Positions 2,917 through 63,833 of a DNA stretch of 64,000 nucleotides are shown here, in pieces. The position numbers and the translations under genes are program-made. The notes beneath the pieces were generated by a model, which searched no databases, was not told the origin of the DNA, and saw only the letters and a list, made by a program, of their open reading frames with translations. Positions within the stretch are counted from its first letter, which is position 1; every line of letters starts with the position of its first letter. Origin of the DNA: Rhyzopertha dominica (Eukaryota; Arthropoda; Insecta; Coleoptera; Bostrichidae); the NCBI GenBank assembly GCA_025024175.1, contig QCXZ01000003.1:62328023-62392022 (forward strand), written 5' to 3'.

Positions 2917-3259
2917 TAAGAATTTAGGATGGCAATGCCATCTGTCAGTATTACACTGACATGATGGCAAAGACACCTAGCTGCCTTAACGGGAACTACT
3001 TCCTAAAGGAAGTGACCTGTAGCCTGACAAATTGGCATGCAACTGCATACTTCAATTTGACAGCAGGCCCCTACGGCACTTTTTGCTGACGGGCAAGAAC
3101 CAACATACATTAAAATGCATGTCTATGCTGTGCTGTCTACACCTCAACCAACTGTAGATAGTACTATTTCGCTGTCATTACAGCTCATCAGTGCAGTTTA
3201 GGTCTAGTGTAGACAACACGGCATAGAACTGGTTTTGCTTATATACCAAAGCAATGGTA
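2917..3259 (-). repeat. Hammerhead-bearing 351-bp unit, copy 1 (retrozyme-like)
   Basis: This is one near-complete monomer (343 of about 351 bp) of the repeat that also occurs at 34289-34654. The two copies share nearly all bases but start at different points. Here the segment beginning aagaatttagg comes first and the ribozyme half second; in the 34 kb copy the order is reversed. Such circular permutation implies a tandem or circular parent. The ribozyme is on the minus strand at 3150-3198 and is flanked by a longer inverted repeat, GTCTACAC and GTGTAGAC. There is no protein-coding capacity. The right edge abuts a truncated hAT copy. No target duplication is visible. Confidence 0.8.
3150..3198 (-). 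ncRNA. Type I hammerhead ribozyme, copy 1
   Basis: Minus strand, 5' to 3': stem I strand AACTGCA, conserved core CTGATGA, stem II GCTGT closed by loop AATG and ACAGC (five perfect pairs), conserved GAA, stem III ATAG-TA-CTAT, then the cleavage-site C and the returning stem I strand TACAGTT. Stem I pairs at six of seven positions with one C-A mismatch. Every residue usually needed in the core (CUGAUGA, GAAA and the UH cleavage dinucleotide) is present. An outer helix GTCTACAC/GTGTAGAC extends stem I beyond an internal loop. Self-cleavage is inferred from the fold, not shown. Confidence 0.85.
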
Positions 3260-3494
3260 CTCATCAGTGTACATAGAAAACATATAAATAATTTGGATCT
3301 TTATTTCCCAGAAGATGTTTTAAGTCGCCTTGAAGAAAATCCACGAAGATTATTCATAGAATAAATACTTTATTAATTACTTAGGTACCTATATCTTATA
3401 AACATTTATTATTTATTTTTATGTTGAATTGTACTCTACAGGACGTTCCTGCTTTGCCCCCCCCCCCCCAGACCAAAACCTGGGTCCGCCCATG
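3260..3494. mobile_element. hAT-type element, one-ended fragment
   Basis: This is the terminal part of the repeat family seen complete at 22049-24189 and 42882-44694. It ends in a C-rich run, then a variant of GACCAAAAGCTGGG and the tip GTCCGCCCATG at about 3484-3494. It is truncated on the left, where it meets the hammerhead repeat. The sequence is closest to the 55141-56438 and 62395-63833 copies. No coding sequence. Confidence 0.7.
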
Positions 3495-7463: not shown

Positions 7464-7838
7464 TTTATTGGGTTTGCAGGCATAAGACGAAATGAAAAAG
7501 TATTGGTCTTGACCGAGATTTGAACTCGGGACCTTTTGAACACCAGTCAAACGCTCTACCACTGACCTATCAGGGCCCTATTCAGAATCAAGGTCAAGGC
7601 AGCATATATACATCAAAGTTAACATGTAATACTGCTGAACGCCATCCGACGCATTTGCAGCTGATTTGCTCGTCGCTCAGTATTTTTGAGCTTCAGAGCA
7701 ATTCAGCTGCAAATGCGTCGGATGGCGTTCATGTTAACTTTGATATATATATTTGACTGGTTCAAAAGGTCCCGAGTTCAAATCTCAGTCAAGGCCAATA
7801 CTTTTTCATTTCATCTTATGCCTGCAAACCCAATTAAA
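7464..7838. repeat. 375-bp palindromic (foldback) element with tRNA-like arm
   Basis: The outer arms 7464-7546 and 7758-7838 are near-perfect inverted copies. The inner arms about 7610-7663 and 7703-7749 also pair (GCCATCCGACGCATTTGCAG and its complement), and a small terminal stem closes the centre. The left arm has about 70 extra bases that complete a tRNA-like sequence; the right arm keeps only its 3' half. The whole could fold into one long hairpin. It looks like two inverted tRNA-headed short elements or a foldback transposon that captured a tRNA-like head. Confidence 0.75.
7505..7578 (-). tRNA. tRNA-like pseudogene (Thr-GGT-like anticodon)
   Basis: The minus strand shows an A-box region (GGTCAGTGGTAGAG), an anticodon arm TTTGA-CTGGTGT-TCAAA whose central bases would be GGT, and a perfect T arm CCGAG-TTCAAAT-CTCGG. 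A run of five Ts follows about five bases after the 3' end, as at a polymerase III terminator. The acceptor stem pairs at only about three of seven positions, so a working tRNA is unlikely. Overall similarity is closest to Cys-type tRNA bodies. Best read as the head of a tRNA-derived element. Confidence 0.55.
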
Positions 7839-25667: not shown

Positions 25668-25984
25668 TATTCAGTGTGCAAAAGAGCAGTTTGAGGCTAA
25701 TAAATTAATTTTAAGCAATAAAAACACACAAAGAAACTTGCAGACCAGAACCCAATTAAATACTATTATATGAAATAATCATTTGGGATATGCATCCACA
25801 TCTTCACGAACTATTTATAAAACAAGAGAGAGTAATTAGAATTTTAAACAACGTAAGACATAAATACAATTGTAAAAGTTTATTTGCAAAATAAAAGGAA
25901 AATACTAACCAATATATGCAGGATTATTGTGCATGGCTACTTGGCAGAATGCAGGTCAAGTCAGGCCACTTCATTTAGGAAGTA

Positions 25985-27315
25985 CGAGACATGTTTTTTA
26001 AGTAAGTACCGTTTTGGAATTAAAAAAAGACGTGTAAAGATATTGCAATAATTTTATCTTACATGAAAGCCTGTACCTTAATCTACTTTTCTACATAATT
26101 TCCGTGAATATTGAGGCACTTGTCATAACGTGGCACCAGTTTTTGAATACCCTCCTCATAAAATTCTGCCGCCTGACTTGTTAACCACTGTATCACAAAT
26201 GTTTTGACTTCGTTATCGTCTTGAAGACGCTGACCACCCAGGTGTTTCTTCAAGTGCAGGAACAAATGGTAGTCGCTGGGCGCTGGATCAGGGCTGTATG
26301 GAGGATGATCTAGAGTTTCCCATTTAAAAGATTTGATGTGATCTTTGGTCCGATTAGCCACATGTGGACGGGCATTGTCATGCAGCAAAACGATACCCTT
26401 ACTCAACTTGCCACGTCTTTTGTTCTGGATTGCACGACGCAGATTGTTCAATGTCTTACAATAAGGCGCTGCATTGATTGTCTCATTACGAGGCAGAAAC
26501 TCCACTAGCAATACTCCTTTTCTGTCCCAAAAAATTGTGCACATGATTTTCCGGGCAGAAATTGTTTGCTTAAACTTCACTTTTTTGGATGATGATGAAT
26601 GTCGCCATTCCATGGATTGTTGTTTCGATTCTGGTGTGACGTAGGCCACCCATGTTTCGTCACCAGTAACAATTTGGTCTAAAAAATCTTCACCTTCATT
26701 GTGGTACCGCTCAAGGAAAGTCAATGCACTGCCTAAACGTTGGATTTTGTGCAAATCTGTCAACATTTTCGGAACCCAACGTGAACACAATTTCCGGGAA
26801 TTCAAGTTCTCGGTCACAATGCGATACAAAACACTACGAGAATATTGAGGAAAGCAGTCGCACAATGATGAAATTGTAAAGCGTCTGTTTTCTCTCACCT
26901 TTTCGTTCACTTTCTGCACCAAATCTTCATTAACGACCGAAGGACGCCCACTCCGTTCTTCATCATGCACATTTGTGCGGCCATCTTTAAATGCTCTCAC
27001 CCATTTCCTTACCATTCCATCACTCATAATGTTTTGTCCGTAAACTTCACAGATCTCACGATGAATATCGATCGGTTTTACGCCTTTAGCACTAAGAAAT
27101 CGTATAACAGCCCGTACTTCACAATCGGCGGGACTCACGATTGTCGGAGGCATCTTAAACACTCAGTAAACAACGTATACAATGAAGAATCAAACTGTAA
27201 TGGCGTCAGTGCGTAGACAAGAGATGTAGGTAACCAGCGCTCATGCGAGGAACGCCGACCGTAGCGCTGCGGCGGCGGAATCGCAAAACGGTACTTACTT
27301 AAAAAACATGCCTCG
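25985..27315 (-). mobile_element. Intact mariner element
   Basis: It is 1331 bp with 31-bp terminal inverted repeats: 25985-26015 begins CGAGACATGTTTTTTAAGTA, and 27285-27315 is its complement with one mismatch. TA dinucleotides on both sides (25983-25984, 27316-27317) are the expected mariner target duplication. A single 359-codon transposase frame fills most of the element. It is inserted in the hammerhead repeat, whose halves match on either side. Good TIRs, TSD and frame suggest recent arrival. Confidence 0.95.
26083..27162 (-). CDS. mariner transposase (DD34D), full length
   Basis: A DDE transposase that cuts and pastes the mariner element into TA sites. The 359-residue frame is close to the family's usual 340-350. 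The N-terminal half (about 10-130) is helix-turn-helix DNA-binding sequence, with GRPSVVNED near 72-80 in the linker. WVPKML (129-134) matches the WVPHxL linker motif. The catalytic triad is visible: D168 in TGDETWV, D262 in LLHDNARPH and D297 in YSPDPAPSD, with 34 residues between the last two. No stop or frameshift is present. A second ATG lies at codon 4 (27153) and fits the family's usual MPPTIVSP start, so initiation may be there. Its own TIRs flank it closely. Confidence 0.95.
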   Translation of the reverse strand: MFKMPPTIVSPADCEVRAVIRFLSAKGVKPIDIHREICEVYGQNIMSDGMVRKWVRAFKDGRTNVHDEERSGRPSVVNEDLVQKVNEKVRENRRFTISSLCDCFPQYSRSVLYRIVTENLNSRKLCSRWVPKMLTDLHKIQRLGSALTFLERYHNEGEDFLDQIVTGDETWVAYVTPESKQQSMEWRHSSSSKKVKFKQTISARKIMCTIFWDRKGVLLVEFLPRNETINAAPYCKTLNNLRRAIQNKRRGKLSKGIVLLHDNARPHVANRTKDHIKSFKWETLDHPPYSPDPAPSDYHLFLHLKKHLGGQRLQDDNEVKTFVIQWLTSQAAEFYEEGIQKLVPRYDKCLNIHGNYVEK

Positions 27316-27461
27316 TATTAAGGCAGCTAGGTGGCTTTGTCATTATGTCAGTAAAATGCCGACAGATTGGCATTGTCATCTAATTTTCTACTAACATCGT
27401 ACCAAACCTTTGGCATGTAGGCAAAAACAGTTCTAATCCATGCTGTATGCACTTAAACCTA

Positions 27462-27500
27462 AACTACACGAGCTGTAACAACAGCGAAACAGATGTAGTT
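27462..27500 (+). ncRNA. Degenerate hammerhead ribozyme, copy 3
   Basis: Stem I strands AACTACA and TGTAGTT are fully complementary. Compared with AACTGCA/TGCAGTT in copy 2, one pair changed from G-C to A-T on both strands, a compensatory change. Stem II (GCTGT...ACAGC) and GAAA remain. The core CTGATGA is reduced to CGA and stem III is damaged, so this copy should be inactive. Confidence 0.6.
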
Positions 27501-27640
27501 GGTTGCGGTGCAGACAGCATAGCATAGACATGCATTTTAATGTATGTCGGTTCTTGATCGCGTGCATGCCAACTTGGCAGAATACGGGTCACTTCTTTTT
27601 AGGTGGCTTTGTCATCATGTCAGTGTTGCAATATAGCATC

Positions 27641-28326
27641 CATTTTGATTCCAATTAGCGGTGGAAAGTTCGAGAACTAATTCAGTACGAAGTATTCACC
27701 AAAATAAACGAGAACGCCCATCTCTAATTCCAACCAAGGCGCCAAATTTTGGAATTTTGTTAAATATTAATATAGACTGAAAGCACTGAATGCATTGTAG
27801 CATTGTAGATTGAATAACTATGTCTCATACATACGAGAACGTTATTGTTTCATCAAATCTAGTAATTAAAAATTACCGGTAACATCCAACACGAAAATGA
27901 CTGGTGAAAATATTTTTGACTAAAAATGTAGACGATACAATTTGTAATGATTTATTCAGTTACAATAAAAGTTTAACTTAATAAATTATTTGTATTTGGT
28001 GGTTTTGGTTTCTTTAAATGATAATATCAAGTACGTTTCGGGCGGTTTAGAAAATATTTTCTGAATACGCATTTTTACATTTTGTATATATTATAAATGA
28101 CATTTAGAAACATGACTTTTATGATGGTTGAGAGCATCAATTAAGATATGAAACACATCATTTGCTGTTTCTGGTTCAGAACCAATTACAGCCACAGGTA
28201 ATCCAAAGGCAATCTTTTGCAGTTGTGGGTATCCCAAATGTAGAAGCTTTTTGATGTCCTCAATTACAACTAAGACTTCTTCAGTGTCGAATTACAGTTG
28301 TACATAACGGACCCATTTTACATATA
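27641..28326. other. No gene seen
   Basis: AT-rich. At 27650 CCATTTTGATTCCA recurs from about 30449, where it also lies near a fragment of the hammerhead repeat. No coding motif. Confidence 0.4.
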
Positions 28327-30499: not shown

Positions 30500-30560
30500 G
30501 CTTTAGTCAATGTAATGCTGAGAGATGGCATTACCATCCAATTTTCTACTATAATACTAA
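30500..30560 (+). repeat. Hammerhead repeat fragment, copy 5
   Basis: GTAATGCTGAGAGATGGCAT and the following ACCATCCAATTTTCTACTA match the A-half of the 351-bp repeat (27345-27395 in copy 3). The ribozyme half is not present. Confidence 0.5.
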
Positions 30561-30647: not shown

Positions 30648-32140
30648 AAGATAATATTTTGTCGGATAGATCGCTGTCTGTTGAAAACACTGACAAAAAA
30701 TTAATAATAGTCTGACGTTTCGATTACACCTGTAATCTTTGTGAAAGACGAAAAACCTCAAAATTTGCCTGACACAAGTTCAAACAAAATTTTGAAAGTA
30801 AATAAACAAATCACCTAGGATGCGAGACGTCATAGAAACAACGTGCCAACCTGATAAAAGAAACTAACGATGAAAAACAAGCTACCTACCTACTAGATAT
30901 ACACGAACTACTTAATAAAAGATCAGTATAAAATAGCCTTCCAAATGTCACCTAACTCATAATTTCCACAATGCCTATTAAAATTATTAGTATTCCTACA
31001 AATTTCTATAGCTTCTTTTATTAGACGTTTGTGATAATATTTTTCTCTATGTAAAATTTATGTTTTAGGCAAATATGAGTGTTCAGCTACGGAAGATTTA
31101 TCTATCTGTTGCAACCTAGTAGCACGTATGTGTTGTTTCAAACGCGTACCTACTTTTCTTTTAGTTTGACCTATGTAACACTTGCCGCAAGAACAAGTAA
31201 ATTTGTAAACACCTTCACTCTCTAAATGTACTTTATCTTTAGTAGAACTTAAAATTTTATTTAAATTATTATATGTACTATCAACAACTAAAATATCGTG
31301 TTTTCTAAGCATCCTTTTAATTTTTCCGAAAGGCCTTGTACATAAGGCAAACTCAACTTCAATTTACTTTGTCCTGGCTGAGAATTTACTTGATTTGGAT
31401 GAGCACTTTTATTAAAAACTGACCAAATATTCTTACTGCTATAACCATTTCTCACTAGCGCTGATTTAAGATGATATATTTCTTTTTGTACAGAACTTTT
31501 GTCTGATATCCTTTGTGGTCTAACAAATAACGTCCTTATAAGACTATTCTTTTGAGAAGGAGGGTGGTGAGATGTGGCATGTAAATATCTGTCTGTGTGT
31601 GTTGGTTTTCTGTAAACCTTGTGTCCTAACTGTCCAGTGTTTGCTCTGTAAATTTTTACATCCAAGAAATGTAAACTACCATTGCTTTCTAATTCCATAG
31701 TAAATTTTATGTCGGGATTTTGAAGAAAGAAACCTACCCAACTCTTCTATACCCTGGGGCCAAATAACAAAAGTGTCATCTACGTACCTATACCAACATT
31801 TTGGTTTAAACTGAAAATTGTTTATCGCTACATGTTCAAAATTTTCCATAAACAAATTAGCTACTACAGGACTTAGAGGTGAACCCATTGCACAACCTGA
31901 TTTTTGTTCATAAAAATTATCATTCCATAAGAAATAAGTAGATTTTAAACAATGTTCGGATAATCTGGCTATCGTGTCACCTAGGGGATCGCTATTAAGC
32001 TTGGATTTGATGATATCTATCGTTTCAGGAATGGGTACTTTCGTAAATAAAGAAACCACGTCAAAACTAATCAAAATATCACTTTCTGAAATACTTAACC
32101 CTCGTATAATAATAAGTTGTCTCCATTCGTAGTCTACCAA
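30648..32140 (-). mobile_element. Penelope-like element family 1, 5'-truncated
   Basis: The 3' tip at 30648 (AAGATAATATTTTGTCGG) matches the tips of the foldback at 79-1105. The 3' UTR contains, on the minus strand, a hairpin GATTAC-AGGT-GTAATC followed by GAAACGTC. This is the shape of hammerhead stem II, the GAAA and the cleavage triplet, although the 5' core (CTGATGA expected) has decayed. The element is truncated near 32110-32140 within the reverse transcriptase. Confidence 0.85.
30923..32140 (-). pseudogene. PLE reverse transcriptase and GIY-YIG endonuclease, broken
   Basis: Minus strand, in order: RT with SFDVVSLFTKVPI (about 32070), GCAMGSPLSPVVANLFME (about 31870) and the catalytic WYRYVDDTFVIW (about 31775); then, in another frame, the SLHFLDVKIYR connector start and KPTHTDRYLH; then GIY-YIG with GVYKFTCSCGKCYIGQTKR (about 31180). 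The catalytic YVDD and the GVY/YIG motifs are intact. At least two frame changes (about 31690 and 31300) and a roughly 22-bp deletion near 31070 break the protein. The start is missing. PLE RTs are related to telomerase and prime on nicked DNA. Confidence 0.9.
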
Positions 32141-32501
32141 TATATCAGAAAGACAAAAAATGAAAAGGAAACAAATTTGTTATCTTACACTAACGAAATG
32201 GCGGAGTTCAGTCGCCGCCCAAAGAAGGGCAGCACCTGCTCTTCCACTCAACCAAATTATGAACTGATAAAAGAGAACTAAAGATACCAATGAAACGAAC
32301 TGAAAATGAAAAATGTAAGTGTATATGTTTATGTATATAAAGTAATTTAATGGAAAAAGTACAGATTACACATGTTGGACAGATAATAATAATTTTTTGT
32401 AAACAAATTTGAAATTACTCGATGCCTTAGACTTTAGCTGTAATGGGACTGAGTTATACGAATTGCANATGTAAGAAAAGGAACGTTTAGAGAAACTACG
32501 T
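32141..32501. other. No gene seen
   Basis: About 360 bp between the PLE truncation and a LINE tail. No motif. An N is at 32467. Confidence 0.4.
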
Positions 32502-34271: not shown

Positions 34272-34288
34272 GCTTAACAAGTATAACT

Positions 34289-34654
34289 AAAATGCATGTC
34301 TATGCTGTGCTGTCTACACCTCAACCAACTGCAGATAGTACTATTTCGCTATCATTACAGCTCATCAGTGCAGTTTAGGTCTAGTGTAGACAACATGGCA
34401 TAGAACTGGTTTTTATTATATACCAAAGCAATGGTATGATGAAAGTAAGAATTTAGGATGGCAATGCCATCTGTCAGCATTACACTGACATATTGACAAA
34501 GCCACCTAGCTGCCATAACAGGTACTACTTCCTAAAGGAAGTGACCTGTAGCCTGACAAATTGGCATGCAACTGCATACTTCAATTTGACAGCAGGCCCC
34601 CACGGCACTTTTTGCTGACGGCAAGAACCAACATACATTAAAATGCATGTCTAT
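34289..34654 (-). repeat. Hammerhead-bearing 351-bp unit, copy 2 (best copy)
   Basis: Starts and ends with the same 15 bp, AAAATGCATGTCTAT (34289 and 34640), so the insert is exactly one 351-bp monomer plus a redundant end. The internal order is ribozyme half then A-half, the reverse of copy 1. At the internal junction TGATGAAAGTAAG joins the end of one half to the start of the other. The unit interrupts the left inverted arm of a PLE; the right arm shows the uninterrupted version, about 12 bp of which are absent here. No coding capacity. Confidence 0.85.
34327..34375 (-). ncRNA. Type I hammerhead ribozyme, copy 2 (best copy)
   Basis: Minus strand: AACTGCA, CTGATGA, stem II GCTGT-AATG-ATAGC (one G-U wobble), GAA, stem III ATAG-TA-CTAT, C, TGCAGTT. 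Stem I is fully complementary over seven pairs. Conserved core residues are all present and the cleavage site would follow the C opposite 34334. An outer helix GTCTACAC/GTGTAGAC (34312-34319 with 34385-34392) extends stem I past an internal loop, where the loop contacts of active natural hammerheads usually lie. Activity is inferred from sequence and pairing. Confidence 0.9.
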
Positions 34655-36690: not shown

Positions 36691-36791
36691 GCCTTGAACA
36701 AATTCTTTTCCCACACCGTGCAACTGTGTATCAATGTTTACCATATGTCAAAATGTCTTTTAGTGTTTTAATTTAGTTAACTTGTTAAACC

Positions 36792-36830
36792 ACCGAAGAA
36801 GGCCGCTTGGCGGTTGAAATGTTAGCATTT
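36792..36830 (+). ncRNA. HHR-like core at PLE family 2 right arm
   Basis: The plus strand reads CCGAAGA, then AGGCCGC-TTG-GCGGTT (a four-pair GC stem plus two G-U pairs), then GAA and ATG-TTAG-CAT. The layout is that of a hammerhead (core, stem II, GAA, stem III), but the core has C for the second base of CTGAAGA and no convincing stem I was found. The same block is present inverted at 34241-34271. Confidence 0.45.
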
Positions 36831-37002
36831 CATGTGTCAAAAATAAAAATTGGAAGTAGGATAAAAACAAGTGTTTTATTATTATTATTATTTAATAACT
36901 TCCAAAAAACTCTACTATTCATTGTAACTTTACTAGAAAAAATTTATTTAAAGTAAATATCTACTCCCCCATTACGGCGATCATGAGAAAGAAGTGCACC
37001 TG

Positions 37003-37378: not shown

Positions 37379-37380
<2 letters not shown>

Positions 37381-37411
<31 letters not shown>
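37381..37411. repeat. (TAA)n tail of the nested LINE
   Basis: About ten TAA units mark the 3' end of the minus-strand LINE at the insertion point. Such tails are usual in several non-LTR clades. Confidence 0.8.
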
Positions 37412-37413
<2 letters not shown>

Positions 37414-38689
37414 ATTTATTGAGCAATGTACAAGGTATACATAGTTCAAAAGCCCTCTAAATCGGCAGAGCCGTTTTACATTAGGGGCAGTTCCATATAA
37501 AATTAGCAGATTAATTTAATCCAAAAAACCAACAGTTGAGTATAAAGCAAACATAGATAGATACACGAAAGATACAAATATCCCTACCTCTCATATAATT
37601 CTAGCAGTTTACAAGATATTTTATTCTTAAACGTTATAAGACTACATTTTTCAGAGAATATGTCAATGTAGTGATTATGCAATATGGCAGCAGTATATTC
37701 AAAACTACCTTTGAATTTCTGAGTTTTATGTCTAGGAATTGAAAGACTATGTACAAAGCGCAAGTCTACATCATGAATATCGGATCTCCGAGTCAGACGT
37801 TCGCAAAGATATGTTGGCAACCCACTAGAAATAATCCTCCGCAAAAACACACAAAACGACAGTATATATCTCTCATTAAGTTTTAGTATTTTAAACTGTC
37901 TGTAATATGGGATGACATGGTCCCTGTAACCTATTAAAAATGAGAACCGTAGACATGCACTTTGCAATAATTGAAGTTTGTCCCTCACTGAATTACTCAG
38001 AAATTTGTAGTACACTGTGTTACAATAATCTATGTGACAGAGTACCAGTACATTGGCAAGTTTCCATTTTATTTCCGGTGATAATGTGTTCTTGTACTTC
38101 CACAGACATTTCAATTTCCACCACCCTATTGATGACTTCCGCACAGCATGTTGCTCAAAGGACAGATGAGGGTCTATTACTACACCCAGGTTTTTCACTT
38201 CCTTGGAGAGAGGAATCAGTTCAGAGTTCAGTAGTATCGCACTAACACACTGTGGCATTTTCCGAATGCAATTTACAGAGCCGATACACATCACCTGAGT
38301 TTTCCTCGCATTCAGTTGAAGACCATTAATGACCGACCAGTCAACGATCGATTGAAGAGTCTCGTTAATTACACCTATAATCTGATTGGCTTCCTCCGGA
38401 AAGCACGACACGTAACATTGAATGTCGTCCGCATAGCAATGTACTCCCCAGTTCTCAGGCATCATTCGAGGAAAGTCGGCAATATATACGCTATAAGCTA
38501 AGGGGCCTAGCACACTACCCTGAGGCATCCCATATGCTGTCGTAATCCAGTCTGATGTCACGCCATCGATTCTAACCGCCTGTACTCGATCGGACAGAAA
38601 GCTGGTAAACCAATTGAACGCAGTACCCTCTATGCCATAGTATTGAAGCTTAGATAGAAGTAGCACACGATGACGTTTTGATTTTGATT
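37381..38689 (-). mobile_element. 5'-truncated LINE nested in the plus-strand LINE
   Basis: Runs from a (TAA)n tail at 37381 to a 5' truncation near 38689 inside its RT. The host LINE is interrupted at TTTTTGCAAG on the left and TTTTGATTGCAG on the right, so a short TTGCA-type target duplication is likely. The tail orientation, 5' truncation and host split are the marks of target-primed integration. Confidence 0.8.
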
Positions 38690-42881: not shown

Positions 42882-44694
42882 CATGGGCGTACCCAGCTTT
42901 TGGTCTAGGGGGGGAAAGCAGGAATTTCCCTTACTGAATAATTCAACATAAATAAAAATGTGCCTTTATCGGACTATGTACCTAAGTGATTAAAGAAGTA
43001 TTTATTCTATGAATAATCTTCGTTAATTTTCTGCAAGGTGACTTGAGATAATTTCTGTGAAGGCCCAAGCTTTTTATGTTTTTTATATATACTGATCTTC
43101 AAAAGCTTGTTTATTCCTAATTCAATTATTGATGATCTCACTTAGACGATATCTACCGCATTCAGTTGCATGTCTATCGCGTTTAACAAAAGCTGAGTAG
43201 ATACATTTTATTTGGAAGAATAAAAATCCGTGAACCACGTTTTATGATTTGGAATTCGCACTTATCAAATATTAATTAAATTAACCGATGCCCACTTTAG
43301 TTTCAACTTTTTGCATTAGAAGCTTTAGAAATTTAAGTTAGAAGTGAATAGGTAGCTAGTATAGATAAAAATTTATCAAAATACTGTAATGATTTGAGCT
43401 GCAGGTTTAGCTAATTTATTTGAACTTAAAAATACAAGTTATAAGCCCCAGCATTATGCGTCAGCTGTCCAAACTCCACCAATCAGCATTAAATTGATGG
43501 TCGTTTTATCTCTAATTTTTACTCATACATATAATTTTACTCAAATTTCTGCATAATTTGAAAACCACCATTTGTTATTGTTCTCAAGCTGCAAAGATCC
43601 TTTCATGTACTATATTCATCTTGCTGGCTGTCATTGATTTGTAAAATATTTAAAATATATCGTGATATGAAACTGAATATGAGCACATCGATAATACTCC
43701 ATTAAACTTGGATATTAGCAAATTTTGGATTAAAAACCGTGATCGCACTGATCTGATGTTTTAAATAGATCAAATTTGAGTACTTCTTTGTGCTCTTTGG
43801 CTAAAATAATGACCAGGGCATACCTCGAGAATAGTGCTTTTGAGTCGATTATATAAATGCTAGATAATAACCAGACGCCGCAACACATCACTAAAATGAT
43901 AGCATATTACATTTCAATGTTCGACGACGATTTTGTACACATTATGAGTAGGTACTGAGTAAAATCAGAATTAGATAGTTGCAAAAAATTATGCAAGACA
44001 TGCTTTGTTATGAACATAGTACAGTATATACCATCTTTTATTTAGACGAGCCTTTGGGTTTATTTGATTATCACATTTTTCATTTATATATTATTTTATT
44101 AAGTTTAGCCAACCTCCGTAGTCCGCCAGTGCACTGCTTCCAAAAATTAACCCAGCGCTTAATATTTTAACCAAATTAAGCTTCATTTAGATAAACTGAA
44201 ATACGTGCTTATAATACTACTGGATTCCTAAAATTTACGTTAAATAGACTTTAATAACTCTTAGTTCGGATGGATTTTTGCTGGAAATAACTGATATTTT
44301 TTAATTTTTTTTGTTTATCTGTATTAATTTTGAAATTTAGAACTAAGAACGATTGGAGTTACCGCCAAATACTAATATGTGACCGATTCTGTGTATTCCA
44401 CATAAGAGAATCATGCATAGTTGAACAATCCTTATAAGAAAACATATTAGAAGAGCTAAGCAAAGTAGAAATCGTATTATGACTCCTGGCCAAAATAACC
44501 TTGGAAACCGTTTGCCAACGACTTATGAATGTCATTTGCATAGGTCAAATATGAGTTCTGGATGAAATACAATTTCGTAAATACATACTTAATTAATCAG
44601 CTAAATGTATGGAAGGTGGAAGGGCCTAGAGTTGGCAGTCCAGGTCCAGGAAGGCAGCTGCCCTCCTTGCCTCCCCCCCTTCGGTAAGCCCATG
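42882..44694. mobile_element. Non-autonomous hAT-type element, perfect 8-bp TSD
   Basis: Tips CATGGGCGTACCCAGCTTTT at the left and TTCGGTAAGCCCATG at the right, flanked by perfect CAACAGCA on both sides (42874-42881 and 44695-44702). 1813 bp. The interior has no transposase and is closely similar, in reverse orientation, to 22049-24189 without its solo LTR. The 8-bp duplication and CA..GGGCGTA-type tips place it in hAT. It must rely on a transposase encoded elsewhere. Confidence 0.9.
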
Positions 44695-47482: not shown

Positions 47483-47689
47483 AAGTAGCTCTGAAACTGA
47501 AGTGTCCTAGTCCGCTCGGGCATTTATACTCGTCCGGGTCACTGACGCGTGGGCGTTGTTACGCATGACCGGTTTCCAGATTCCAGGTAGTTCAATGCCC
47601 CGGTCTCGGTTGTAATTGTGCGGGTTCTTCTGGATTTCGCTGGCTTCCTTGTACAGTCTCGGCCAGAATCTCGCTGGGCCATCTAAATA

Positions 47690-48356
47690 GTATCCATAGC
47701 GGCATACNGTTCACGATGGAGATGGAGACCAATGGCGCCCTACCCTTCCTGGATGTGATGGTGACAAGGAAACAAGANGGCACGCTAGGACATCGTGTCT
47801 ATAGGAAGCCAACCCACACGGATCGCNACCTGCATGCAGATTCANACCACCACCCCGCCCAAAAACAAGGAGTCATCAACACGCTGATACAGCGGGCGAA
47901 GCTAGTCAGCGAACCAGACCACCTAGAAGAGGAATTAGAACGTCTACGCAGAGCACTACAGAAGAACGGATATCCTAAGGCACAGATTGAGAAGGCTATC
48001 AACAAGCAACCACGGAGGAAGGAACCAGAGGAGAACATCGCTGCAGCATACCTGCCCTACGCAATGGATGTACAAATAAGATCGGACGGATGCTGAGAAG
48101 ACATCATATAAACACCATCTTCACCGCCCCGAGAAAGATAGCGAACGCCTTTATCGAAATACCAGAGACCGGCAAGGTGATAGGTCGGCTGTAGCAGAAC
48201 ATCGAATGGAGACTGGCCACATCATCAAATTCGAGGAAGCACAAATGTTGTCGAGGGAAGCGAGATTCTGGCCTAGACTGTACAAGGAAGCCATCGAAAT
48301 CCAGAAGAACCCGCACAATTACAACCGAGACCGGGGCATTGAACTACCTGGAATCT
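47690..48356 (+). pseudogene. PLE family 3 RT end and GIY-YIG remnant with core deletion
   Basis: Plus strand: METNGALPFLDVMVTRK, then LGHRVYRKPTHTDR and a charged connector ending in IAAAYLPYA (47716-48070). Next come KIGRMLRRHHINTIFTAPRK and KIANAFIEIPETGK, which in intact PLE proteins lead into GVY...YIG. Here the frame jumps directly to SAVAEHRMETGH (about 48185) and ends with EAIEIQKNPHNYN. The whole GVY-YIG catalytic segment is missing, implying a deletion of roughly 100 bp or more. A C-terminal stop follows LPGI near 48356. Confidence 0.75.
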
Positions 48357-55140: not shown

Positions 55141-56438
55141 AGCTCCCCCCCTGGGCCTCGGTTGCCAACTCTGGGCCCTTCCAATTTCCCATACATTTAG
55201 CTGGTTAATTATGTGTGTACACCTAAAAATTGTCTTATTTACAAAATTTTAAATACAGTAAAATTTATAGGCAACTGTATTTCACAATTTTCATTCAGAA
55301 CTCATACTTGACCCTTGCAAATGACCTTCTGTAATAAGTCGTTGTCAAATGGTTTCCAAGCTTAATCGATGCCATGTGCGTTTTGAAGCTGTAACTGCAA
55401 CATTATTGTTGTTACGAATCGTTGTTTTAGGGCAGATATAACTTTTAAAGACTATCTTGGTCAGGATGAGTCATAACACGATTTCAGCTTAGTTCTCTTC
55501 TACATTTTCCTATAAAGCTTATTCAACTAACTACTGTTATATGGAATCACATCAGAATCTGTCATATATTCGGTGATAACTCTAACCTTTGTACCAAATT
55601 TCTGAATTCACATTACATTTTAACAATTAATACAAAAAAAAACTAATAATCCATCCTAACTCACGTTTATGAAAGTCAGTTTATTTCATATAAGTTTTAG
55701 GAATCTAGTAAAGGTATTATCAGCATGAATTAAAACCCGGTGTGTTGTTAAAAATGTAATTAAATATATTTCAGTTTATTTGAATGAAGCTTAATTTGGT
55801 TAAAATATTAAGTGGTCGGTTAATTTTTGAGAGCAATGCACTGGCGATCTAAGAAGGTTGGCTTGACGTATGATGCTGAGGCATTTGTCATTCCAAATTT
55901 TAATAATGTTAGTTATCCATCGAGTCTCTTTCCCTGGGGAGTAAAAATTACTACAATTGTATCTTTAACACCTATACATATAAACTCGTAGTTTAAATTT
56001 CTAAAGCTTCTGGTGTGGGAAGTCGAAACTGTACTAAAAGCGCATCGATTAATGCATTAGTCTTTGATATGTGTTAATTCTGAATCTTTATTCTCCCAAA
56101 TAAAATGTATCAACAACTTTTTTGTGAAATGCGGGTGCGATGCAACTGAATGCGCCTCACCTAACTGAGCTTATCAATAACTGAATTAGTAATAAAGGGG
56201 TTTTGTATGATCAGTGTACATAGAAAACATATAAATAATTTGGGTCTTTATTTCACAGAAGATGTTTTTATTCGCCTTGCAGAAAATCCATGAAGATTAT
56301 TCATGGAATAAATACTTCATTAATTACTTAAGTACCTATATCTTACAAACATTTATTATTTCTATTTATGTTGAATTATACTCTACAGGACGTTCCTGCT
56401 TTACCCCCCTCTAGACCAAAAGCTGGGTTCGCCCGTGC
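55141..56438. mobile_element. hAT-type element copy, subfamily 2, one degenerate end
   Basis: The right end has the C run, CTAGACCAAAAGCTGGGTTCG and CCCGTG, the familiar tip with changes. The left end starts at CAGCTCCCCCCCTGGG without the outer tip. The interior is nearly identical, inverted, to 62395-63833 (for example CTGTAACTGCAACATT and GGTTAAAATATTAAGTGGTC). It serves as an empty-site reference for the solo LTR of the 22 kb copy. No coding sequence. Confidence 0.75.
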
Positions 56439-61184: not shown

Positions 61185-61305
61185 TGGTACTGAGGAATAT
61201 TAACCAATTCTATGCCATGCTGTCTGCATTAGACCTAAACTACACTCATGAACTGTAATGACAGCTAGTTGGTGCAGACAGCAGAGCATAGACGTGCATT
61301 TTTAA
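61185..61305 (+). repeat. Hammerhead repeat fragment, copy 4
   Basis: Matches only the ribozyme half of the 351-bp unit, in the orientation of copy 3, from TTCTATGCCATGCTGTCTGC to CATAGACGTGCATTTTTA. The outer inverted repeat is still visible. Confidence 0.7.
61238..61270 (+). ncRNA. Degenerate hammerhead ribozyme, copy 4
   Basis: AACTACA, then CTCATGA (core G changed to C), stem II CTGT-AATG-ACAG, then the GAAA and stem III are deleted before AGTTGG. Inactive relic. Confidence 0.6.
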
Positions 61306-62394
61306 TTTACTGTATACCCCAAAATTGAGCGCTTTTTCAGAACAGAAGGCCTATTTTTGTTTAGCTAATAAAAAGCACATTTTAAAATGTAACGAGCAAT
61401 TGTAAATCGTAGCTGGTTTGCGGAATGATCGAAGCTGCTGAAAGCGACTGCAAACATACACAATACGCATTATACTGCCATGTTATTGCCATTGGCTTTC
61501 ATCCAAATAAATAAAAGGCTTATACAGCAGAAACAGAAAATAAAGGCAACATACGATTACCATTGCACATAACATTACCGACTATGTTGTTTCCTTTTTA
61601 GAGTCGGCATGGCGTTCATACACCGTTTCGGGCCGTTACACCGCTTTTCAAACTTATTGGATATTTAGCTCAAACGACCCATTAAATTTCTTCAAATAAG
61701 CTTCGAACGCAGGATCGCAACGAGAACTAACCGCTAAAGAACTGATCCTGAATTATGGGCGCGATTAGAAGATTAATTTATGCCCATTACGGTTTATGGC
61801 CCTGCATAATTGAGCTCTCTGCTTCCTCCATTATGCGCTATACGTCGCTGGGTAGACCGCTGAAAGATTTAGACGTAAGACAACATGGTCCTTAATGCTT
61901 AAATCTAGACATTGAAAAGCTCGTAACGCTACAAGAGGTTTTCGTCTTGACATTAAGCCTCTTGGTTCTGGTGCGGAAAATATAGCAAAAAATAACGTGA
62001 TTTTCAGGTTTGCCTCTGAACGGATGAGCGATACGTCAAAGTATCTCAGAATTCCTTCAAGGAGATTTGTGTTGGTCGCTGATGGGTAATGTGCTTGTTG
62101 CAGAGAAAAATTTGTCAGCTTTAAAAATTTTAAATGTACACAGCGAACGGTTGTTTTTCATCTTAAAATTAAAACTAAATACTAGAGTATTGCATTAGTT
62201 ACGTGGTTACGGCATTATAATGACACAGGTAAACTTTAGTTTTATTACCTTGTGAAACCTGTATTTTATTCTTCTACTTTATTATCATAATTAGGTCTCT
62301 GGGAGAAACACTGTTCAACTATATAAAATGTTTTACTTGCAAAGAAAAGCAGTTGATAATTATAAATACTGTTCGGTTTTGGTACCACAAGGAT
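61306..62394. other. No gene seen; GC-richer block at 61580-62080
   Basis: No coding motif. Between 61740 and 61830 the strings GATTAGAAGATTAATTTATG, CCATTACGG and TTTATGGCC resemble homeodomain binding sites in a cluster. A regulatory role is conjecture. Confidence 0.35.
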
Positions 62395-63833
62395 CATGGG
62401 CGTACCCAGCTTTTGGTCTAGGGGGGAGGTGGCAAAGCAGGAACGTCCTGTAGAGTATAATTCAACATAAATAGAAATAATAAATGTTTATACGATATAG
62501 GTACTTGAGTAATTAATGAAGTATTTATTCCATGAATAATCTTCGTGGATTTTCTGCAAGGCGATTTAAAACATCTTCTGTGAAATAAAGACCCAAATTA
62601 TTTATATGTTTTGTATGTACACTGATCATACAAAGCCCCTTTATTACTAATTCAGTTATTGATAAGCTCAGTTAGGTGAGGCGCATTCAGTTGCATCGCT
62701 GTCGCGTTTAACAAAAAATGAGTTGATACATTTTATTTGTGAGAATAAAGATCCGTGATCCACATAATGTATAATGATATCATACGAAGTACCAAAGGAA
62801 CATACATTTCACCTTAAAAGTTCTACTAATAGGAGCACGATTTCTGATTCACAATTAACACATATCAAAGACTAATGCATTAACCGATGCGCTTTTAGTA
62901 CAGTTTCAACTTCCCACACCAGAAGCTTTAGAAATTTAAGCTAGGAGTTCATATGTATAGGTGTTAAAGATACAATTGTAGTAATTTTTACTCCCCAGGG
63001 AAAGAGACTCGATGGATAACTAACATTATTAAAACTTGGAATGACAAATGCCTCAGCATCATGCGTCAAGCAAACCTTCTTAGATCGCCAGTGCATTGCT
63101 CTCAAAAATTAACCGACTACTTAATATTTTAACCAAATTCGGCTTCATTTAAATAAACTGAAATATATTTAATTGCATTTTTAACAACACCGGGTTTTAA
63201 TTCGTGCTGATAATACTTTTACTGGATTCCTAAAACTTATATTAAATAAACTGACTTTCATAAACGTGAATTTGGAAGGATTTTTAGTTTTTTTTGTTTT
63301 TTTTGTATTAATTGTTAAAATGTAATGTGAATTTAGAAATTTGGTACAAAAGTTAGAGTTATCATCGAATATATGACAAATTCTGATGTGATTCCATATA
63401 ACAGTAGTTAGTTGAACAATCTTTATAGGAAAAGGTAGAAGAGCTGAACTAAACAGAAATAGTGTTATGACTCATCCTGATTAAAATAGTCTTTTAAAGC
63501 TATATCCGCCCTAAGACCACGATCCGTTACAACAAGAATGTTGCAATTACAGCTTCAAAACGCAAATGGCACTGATTAAGCTTGGAAACCATTTGTAAAC
63601 GACTTATTAGAGAAGGTCATTTGCAAGGGTCAAATATGACGTCTGGATGAAAATTGTGAAATACACTTGCCTATAAATTTTACTGTATTTGCAATTTTGT
63701 AAATAAGACAATTTTTTGGTGTACACACATAATTAACCAGCTAAATGTATGGGAAATTGGAAGGGCCCAGAGTTGGCAACCCAAGTCCAGGGGGGGCAGC
63801 TGCCCTCCCTTGTCCCCCTTCGGTACGTCCTTG
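62395..63833. mobile_element. hAT-type element copy, subfamily 2
   Basis: The left tip CATGGGCGTACCCAGCTTTT and the right tip TTCGGTACGTCCTTG (degenerate) bracket 1439 bp. The interior is the inverted near-copy of 55141-56438. Flanking 8-mers (ACAAGGAT, GCTACAGG) do not match, so the target duplication has decayed or the right end is rearranged. No transposase. Confidence 0.75.

Follow-up and report, generated by a model that had tools for sequence, protein, structure and literature searches.

The window analysed here, the whole stretch of 64,000 nucleotides of Rhyzopertha dominica DNA, contains several copies of a repeat with a unit of 351 nt. Copy 1 (34288–34654, minus strand) is a one-armed insertion of 367 nt (1.05 units), consisting of one complete unit and 16 nt of the next, with its cDNA start at position 34288, at the sequence termed site B below. 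The sequence-only reading that led to this study had placed a 351-bp non-coding repeat at 34289–34654; its unit length is retained, but the limits are now 34288–34654, with the 16 nt extra. Copy 2 (2917–3259, minus strand) comprises about one lap, starts at site A and has an intact core with a single stem I mismatch (C·A). Copy 3, on the plus strand, is divided into a left part (25929–25982; limits set by eye) and a diverged right part with a deleted core (27318–27643). The mariner element that sets off the left part (25983–27317) is inserted at a TA within copy 3 and has a stop-free frame of 359 codons. Copy 4 (61196–61313, plus strand) is partial with a broken core, and copy 5 (30506–30557, plus strand) is a 51-nt fragment. 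A single 351-nt sequence underlies copies 1, 2 and 3, which differ by circular permutation; it has a GC content of 42–44% and a longest stop-free stretch of 58 codons.

Copy 1 lies within a dispersed repeat, of which a paralogous copy lacking the insertion is found at 36694–36890 (minus strand). The 16-mer present at both ends of copy 1 lies in the interior of both copy 2 and copy 3 and is missing from this empty site; the end repeats are thus an overlap of the unit and were rejected as a target duplication. Copy 1 is a single arm from site B without duplication, and about 8–12 target bases are missing compared to the paralog. A dispersed repeat also starts at the right border of copy 2 (3263–3494), with other copies at 62395–62626, 56210–56438 and 42882–43096. 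As these other copies run on leftwards, copy 2 apparently took the place of the missing part or displaced it. Elsewhere in the window, positions 475–690 match MIR859 with 63 bits, under the gathering score of 130, and may represent a fold-back element and not a microRNA; a tRNA-like sequence at 7505–7576 (minus strand, 51.4 bits) could be a tRNA gene or the head of a SINE.

The unit carries a type I hammerhead ribozyme, which in copy 1 extends from stem I to stem I over 34327–34375 of the minus strand, with cleavage predicted between 34334 (C17) and 34333. Read along the minus strand, the core CTGATGA (34368–34362) is followed by stem II (GCTGT-AATG-ATAGC, 34361–34348), GAA (34347–34345), stem III (34344–34335) and C17 (34334), and stem I is formed by seven base pairs between 34375–34369 and 34333–34327 (AACUGCA/UGCAGUU). 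The sequence-only reading had listed these parts in this order, and the descriptor analysis bears it out. A descriptor of the whole motif, run on both strands, has one match in the window; among 600 dinucleotide-shuffled windows there was no match with at least five pairs in stem I and one with four. The outer helix proposed beyond an internal loop is also present, so that the ribozyme together with its outer helices forms a rod reaching from about 34299 to about 34404 (minus strand). Stem III, drawn earlier as four pairs with a 2-nt loop, is better described as three pairs closed by a palindromic tetraloop (GUAC in copy 1, GAUC in most aligned relatives), an arrangement that makes action as a dimer possible. 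A palindromic stem III loop is also reported for the axolotl hammerhead in the available text of PMC7229834. With the core CUGANGA, the GAA, the A15.1–U16.1 pair, a cleavable H17 and the type I topology all present, the motif is confirmed, at the level of sequence, as a genuine type I hammerhead, and self-cleavage is predicted.

The Rfam models had been named earlier as a check. The best match at the window ribozyme was Hammerhead_HH9, with an E-value of 3.3e-4 when 601 nt are searched and of 0.035 over the whole window, but its 26.0 bits lie below the gathering score of 52 and no Rfam family reached gathering at this position; this score is a criterion of the library and not a biological one. 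The same model scored 22 for copy 2 and 16.1 for copy 3. Lack of conservation of the core relative to its flanks had been named as one refuting outcome, and here the core varies less than the remainder of the unit: the consensus letter stands at each of the 13 scored core positions in 91 of the 93 units that cover the rod (37 loci, young copies picked by similarity to the window copy). Non-consensus letters make up 0.37% of the core, compared to 1.41% of the whole unit, a value as low being reached by 0.4% of random position sets.

Covariation was assessed in an alignment of 17 rods, consisting of copies 1–3 of the window and 14 rods from seven diverged loci; one locus in which the core region is deleted (L082) and copy 4 of the window were left out. 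In this alignment 94.8% of cells are paired, and two-sided changes are observed in five pairs across all four helices (19 cells, compared to 0–3 cells in slid control structures). Three of five covariation measures lie above all of 500 shuffles; the two that do not are the number of such pairs, which was reached by 59 of the 500, and the pair types, reached by all 500. The four window copies taken alone give weak covariation support, and it is among the 17 rods that the helices are backed by compensatory change.

A search pattern that leaves the seven core letters free and fixes 23 neighbouring letters matched 2,423 places in the 479-Mb assembly (138 contigs), compared to none for the reversed pattern. 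Because of the 23 fixed letters, this is a sample of young copies; CTGATGA was read by eye in 89 of the first 100 of the 2,423 matches. Head-to-tail multimers reach about five units, with a longest single arm of 1,743 nt, and many copies are shorter than a dimer. A scan of viral contigs gave no matches. The type I hammerhead, the 351-bp non-coding unit, the multimers and the abundance in the genome support the assignment of the repeat to the metazoan non-LTR retrozymes; the sequence-only reading had already suggested a retrozyme family. The added label “arthropod” is likely to be right, since most named relatives of the transposon proteins in the window are from insects and arachnids, but some are from fish, a lizard and sea urchins, and transposons cross species, which weakens this line of proof.

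Hammerheads in short tandem repeats are known from satellites of newts, schistosomes and cave crickets. The likeness to these satellites is one of description only, and the copies fetched in this analysis are short insertions scattered through the genome and do not form long arrays. The closest parallels are the metazoan non-LTR retrozymes (Cervera and de la Pena 2020, PMC7229834), which, in the part of that account available to us, share a type I hammerhead, a non-coding unit of 170–400 nt, a GC content below 45%, head-to-tail copies and coexistence with Penelope-like elements; their sequences are described there as species-specific. The LTR retrozymes of plants also produce a small hammerhead-processed RNA and are non-autonomous, but, in the accessible text of PMC7761336, they have a type III hammerhead, LTRs, a PBS and PPT and 4-bp duplications, and Gypsy machinery is presumed. 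The element described here adds a new member to this established class, and its genomic copies would derive from a multimeric or circular RNA.

The anatomy of the insertions was read from copies outside the window. In a first genome search, the best 40 of 2,790 first-look candidates were scored, giving 139 matches in 38 places including the window, and the other 37 loci were fetched. They comprise 28 two-armed arrays, eight one-armed copies (seven starting at B and one at A) and one locus of three blocks (L029); L012, whose A arm is short and whose duplication measures 12 bp, is counted as two-armed. All 28 two-armed loci have an antisense arm on the left and a sense arm on the right. The diverged copy 3 served as query for a second search (best 40 of 3,006 candidates), which gave the same polarity by coordinates in 15 of 15 loci containing both orientations, and in eight of eight of these that were fetched. 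Among the first 100 of the 2,423 pattern matches, seven new opposite pairs within 0.35 kb also agreed, again by coordinates. Altogether, 50 of 51 loci over the three samples are antisense-left/sense-right, the exception being L029 with one reverse junction; the first two samples are best-scoring copies rather than random ones, and seven loci of the second and all of the third were read by coordinates only. Three wider pairs of the third set at 1.2–2.6 kb, which agree, and old fragments in reverse order 1.3 and 0.8 kb from the L014 and L026 arrays were left out of this count.

The outer ends of the arrays fall at two places in the unit. In copy 1, site A is at 34439–34446 (ATGAAAG|TAAGAATTTAGG, plus-strand reading), where it is not an end, and an internal instance of site B is at 34633–34640 (ACAT|TAAAATGCATG, plus-strand reading); arms at other loci start at both. 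Among the typed ends, 28 are at A (unit positions 339–353, with the numbering continued beyond 351) and 35 are at B, including 32 within unit positions 187–193. One A end is combined with one B end in 26 of the 28 two-armed loci, the left end being A in 11 and B in 15. The two exceptions, L021 with two A ends and L033 with one untyped end, are both without duplication. Site A is loose, extending over about 15 nt. The predicted fold of the circle leaves it mostly unpaired (rank 8 among 351 windows ordered from the least paired) and places B in a hairpin loop (rank 27). Round the circle, the distances between the two sites are about 155 and 195 nt, and the ribozyme rod lies to one side. By eye, arm starts are independent of homology with the primer end.

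Duplications of at least 10 bp surround the arrays in 24 of the 28 two-armed loci, with a mode of 13. Their lengths in 23 loci are 13 bp (11 loci), 14 bp (five), 10 bp (three), 12 bp (two), 11 bp (one) and 15 bp (one), to which the 12 bp of L012 are added; as the matching rule allows a short extension into the array, individual lengths may be wrong by 1–2 bp. L021 and L033 have none, and L037 and L040 only 7 bp. When flanks were paired across loci under the same rule, matches of at least 9 bp occurred in 4 of 1,082 comparisons. The target, AAN[13]NTT, is two-fold symmetric: A is found at −3 and −2 in 17 and 16 of 23 loci, and T at +2 and +3 in 19 and 17 of 23, and the duplicated stretch is 80% AT compared to 65% in the distal flank. 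Traces of this anatomy are retained in the eight diverged loci: each has a single B end, four have a clear A end, and two keep exact duplications, of 13 and 12 bp. We regard it as most improbable that the repeat is a satellite that arose by unequal crossing-over or reinsertion of DNA circles, the inversions then being rearrangements or misassemblies. This reading accounts for the head-to-tail arrays, but it was rejected on the target duplications, the fixed ends, the one-way polarity and the paralogous site that lacks copy 1.

The unit positions at which the two arms join are unrelated, the offsets of the 27 inner junctions fitting a uniform spread (KS p 0.57), and at 14 of the 27 the alignments of the arms overlap by 2–3 nt. 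This distribution bears on self-priming, in which the first cDNA snaps back on itself or on an antisense template and thereby makes the inverted arm. Such a process is favoured for head-to-head Penelope inserts of bdelloids in the available part of PMC3846280, and one junction here, in L012 (1589–2190), where the short arm overlaps the long arm in a nearly symmetric hairpin, is a candidate for it. Self-priming, however, predicts arms that meet at about the same unit position, and it leaves a fixed and different start at the far end unexplained; we consider it very unlikely, and on the uniform offsets it was rejected as the general cause.

Twin priming by a LINE has to be weighed as well. It yields inverted inserts of antisense-left/sense-right polarity with short microhomology at the inner joint. 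An APE-type reverse transcriptase would then have copied tandem or circular retrozyme RNA, the break in the second strand priming the inverted arm, and both the polarity of the arrays and the overlap at their inner joints are as twin priming gives; LINE-like reverse transcriptase fragments are also present in the window. Against it stand the narrow duplication length with its mode of 13, the symmetric two-sided target and the combination of one A with one B start in 26 of 28 arrays. Nor did the scored loci of one LINE family, read through 221 recurring nt of the query, show an opposite-strand neighbour (0 of 40), a control of strand arrangement only. We judge a LINE origin unlikely. In this LINE family (window positions 37380–37600), the repeated part stops near 37380, where there is a run of TAA microsatellite.

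Sequence variants connect the two arms of an array to a single template. Non-consensus letters are shared within the same arm in 272 of 559 cases (49%) and with the opposite arm in 212 of 443 (48%), compared to 2,370 of 43,171 (5.5%) with other loci; for letters confined to one locus, the values are 72 of 277 in the same arm and 44 of 219 in the opposite arm. Sharing with the opposite arm is about as frequent as sharing within an arm; the simplest interpretation is that one RNA sequence was the source of both arms, which would suit either a single circle or a homogeneous multimer. Gene conversion after insertion could also have made the arms alike, and a linear tandem transcript could be the source of the same arrays.

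A fragment from a candidate enzyme family lies about 2.1 kb from copy 1. The region 31058–32179 (minus strand) is a fragment of a Penelope-like element with a broken frame, which contains a reverse transcriptase and, by eye, a C-terminal GVY...YIG-like motif; a second, diverged fragment at 47569–48194 (plus strand) also reads by eye like a Penelope-like element and has no Pfam match. The family of the reverse transcriptase fragment at 31676–32179 gave 6,807 first-look candidates, of which the best 150 were scored, with open frames of up to 814 codons. The family protein matches RVT_1 (E 5.9e-11), and a search of solved structures returned one weak reverse transcriptase match. On motifs read by eye, we provisionally place the family in the Penelope clade, whose reverse transcriptases are telomerase-like. 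An endonuclease motif resembling GIY-YIG, GVYKITCSCGKCYIGQT, was likewise read by eye, while no Pfam profile match for a GIY-YIG domain was obtained in the Penelope-like proteins and their single-sequence predicted fold was too poor to show one.

Insertions of this family resemble those of the retrozyme. Opposite pairs within 4 kb are antisense-left/sense-right in eight of eight cases (by eye). In a sample of 30 loci of about 3.4 kb, both ends are visible in 13 copies; automatic typing assigned one end with a tail and one without in 10 of these and two no-tail ends in three (L049, L059 and L067, the last cut by the end of the locus), whereas by eye L059 is mixed and L064 has two tails. Duplications of 12–17 bp are found in eight of the 13, all with mixed ends (13 bp in three, 12 bp in two, 14 bp in two and 17 bp in one), and five are without. 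In these eight, T occupies +2 in seven and +3 in eight, and A occupies −3 in six and −2 in three, so that the left AA is weak. The end anatomy matches the description of Penelope elements in the accessible text of PMC3846280. On genomic sequence, the two families share a duplication mode of 13, NTT on the right, paired starts and one polarity, the Penelope-like side of this comparison consisting of eight of 13 copies with a weak left AA. The recurrence of these insertion traits in the Penelope-like family argues further against LINE twin priming.

The proximity of copy 1 to the fragment at 31058–32179 might suggest that the repeat is merely the pseudo-LTR of this element: both are on the same strand, and Penelope-like elements are carriers of hammerheads. 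We find this hardly credible, and it was discarded, as copy 1 is inserted in a dispersed repeat with an empty paralog, the ends and the hammerhead-like motif of the Penelope-like family differ in sequence from the retrozyme, and the arrays at 37 loci are made of retrozyme units. The hammerhead-like motif of the family (L046–L075) lies upstream of the no-tail end, at a distance of about 65 nt (for example near 2905–2955 of L062). It consists of UUGACAA, a hairpin GAUUAC-AGGU-GUAAUC, GAAACGUC and AGAC, and may be a putative ribozyme; if so aligned, C3 is replaced by U and G8 by A, a paired swap of the C3–G8 contact. There is also a loose likeness, over very few letters, of site A to the no-tail start (TAAGA) and of site B to the tail start (AATGC downstream).

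Penelope-like elements are a strong candidate for the mobilisation of retrozymes in the available text of PMC7229834, and that account and a 2024 review (PMC11722881), as far as their text is accessible, name LINEs or Penelope-like elements as candidates. Recombinant Poseidon protein is reported to cut and extend both strands, with internal starts at two sites and a preference for ATT; in vitro, the ribozyme is dispensable and the start sites are alike on both strands (PMC11167929, available part), two observations that weigh against the mechanism proposed below. In the portions of PMC11167929 and PMC3846280 available to us, Penelope/Poseidon resemble the retrozyme, as it is read here, in the cutting and extension of both strands, two internal RNA start sites, AT-rich ATT targets, an inverted arm with one tailed end and duplications of 8–10 bp. 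They differ in encoding a reverse transcriptase and an endonuclease, whereas the retrozyme is non-coding, and in a tail of 30–40 nt between the starts, compared here to distances of about 155 and 195 nt between the starts round the circle and arms of up to several laps. For other metazoan retrozymes, the text of PMC7229834 at hand describes tandem copies, with duplications of more than 4 bp “when present”; two-armed arrays, the two fixed start sites, the 13-bp rule and the symmetric target are features of the present family that this text does not contain. Two-armed retrozyme arrays were not found in the literature searched, mostly abstracts and with few subscription papers covered (PMC7229834, PMC11167929, PMC3846280, PMC7761336, PMC8490949, PMC11722881), and within that literature the insertion anatomy and the Penelope-like assignment look new for retrozymes.

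We consider it probable that a staggered break supplies two primers, its two 3′ ends, and that a Penelope-like reverse transcriptase extends both of them on a single retrozyme RNA, circular or multimeric. Multimeric transcripts would cut themselves into 351-nt monomers, which would probably be ligated to circles. Acting as a pair, a Penelope-like protein of this genome would cut each target strand immediately 5′ of NTT; the two cuts would lie about 13 bp from each other and leave 3′ overhangs. Each 3′ end would then prime reverse transcription at its own weakly paired stretch of the retrozyme RNA, A for one end and B for the other. The two antisense cDNAs would run for up to about five laps and be joined at arbitrary unit positions, often with 2–3 nt in common, giving an antisense left arm, a sense right arm and a duplication of about 13 bp outside; priming from a single end would produce one-armed copies such as copy 1. 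On a stricter version we are evenly balanced: one circular RNA may be held at two loops by a dimeric Penelope-like protein, with the two 3′ ends of a 13-nt stagger priming on this one circle and the two cDNAs chasing each other round the ring until they are joined as a palindromic array.

The many copies of this family in one large-scaffold assembly provide a mechanistically readable insertion signature, which matches that of a Penelope-like family of the same genome. The question of the enzyme that mobilises animal retrozymes can thereby be tested with one protein and one 351-nt RNA. If the stricter version with a single circle is true, the circle would be the transposition intermediate and two-ended priming would be the normal mode of Penelope-type insertion. 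The inverted pseudo-LTRs with a tail at one end, an old puzzle, would then have the same cause, and two-ended priming would offer a common account of the insertion anatomy of Penelope elements.
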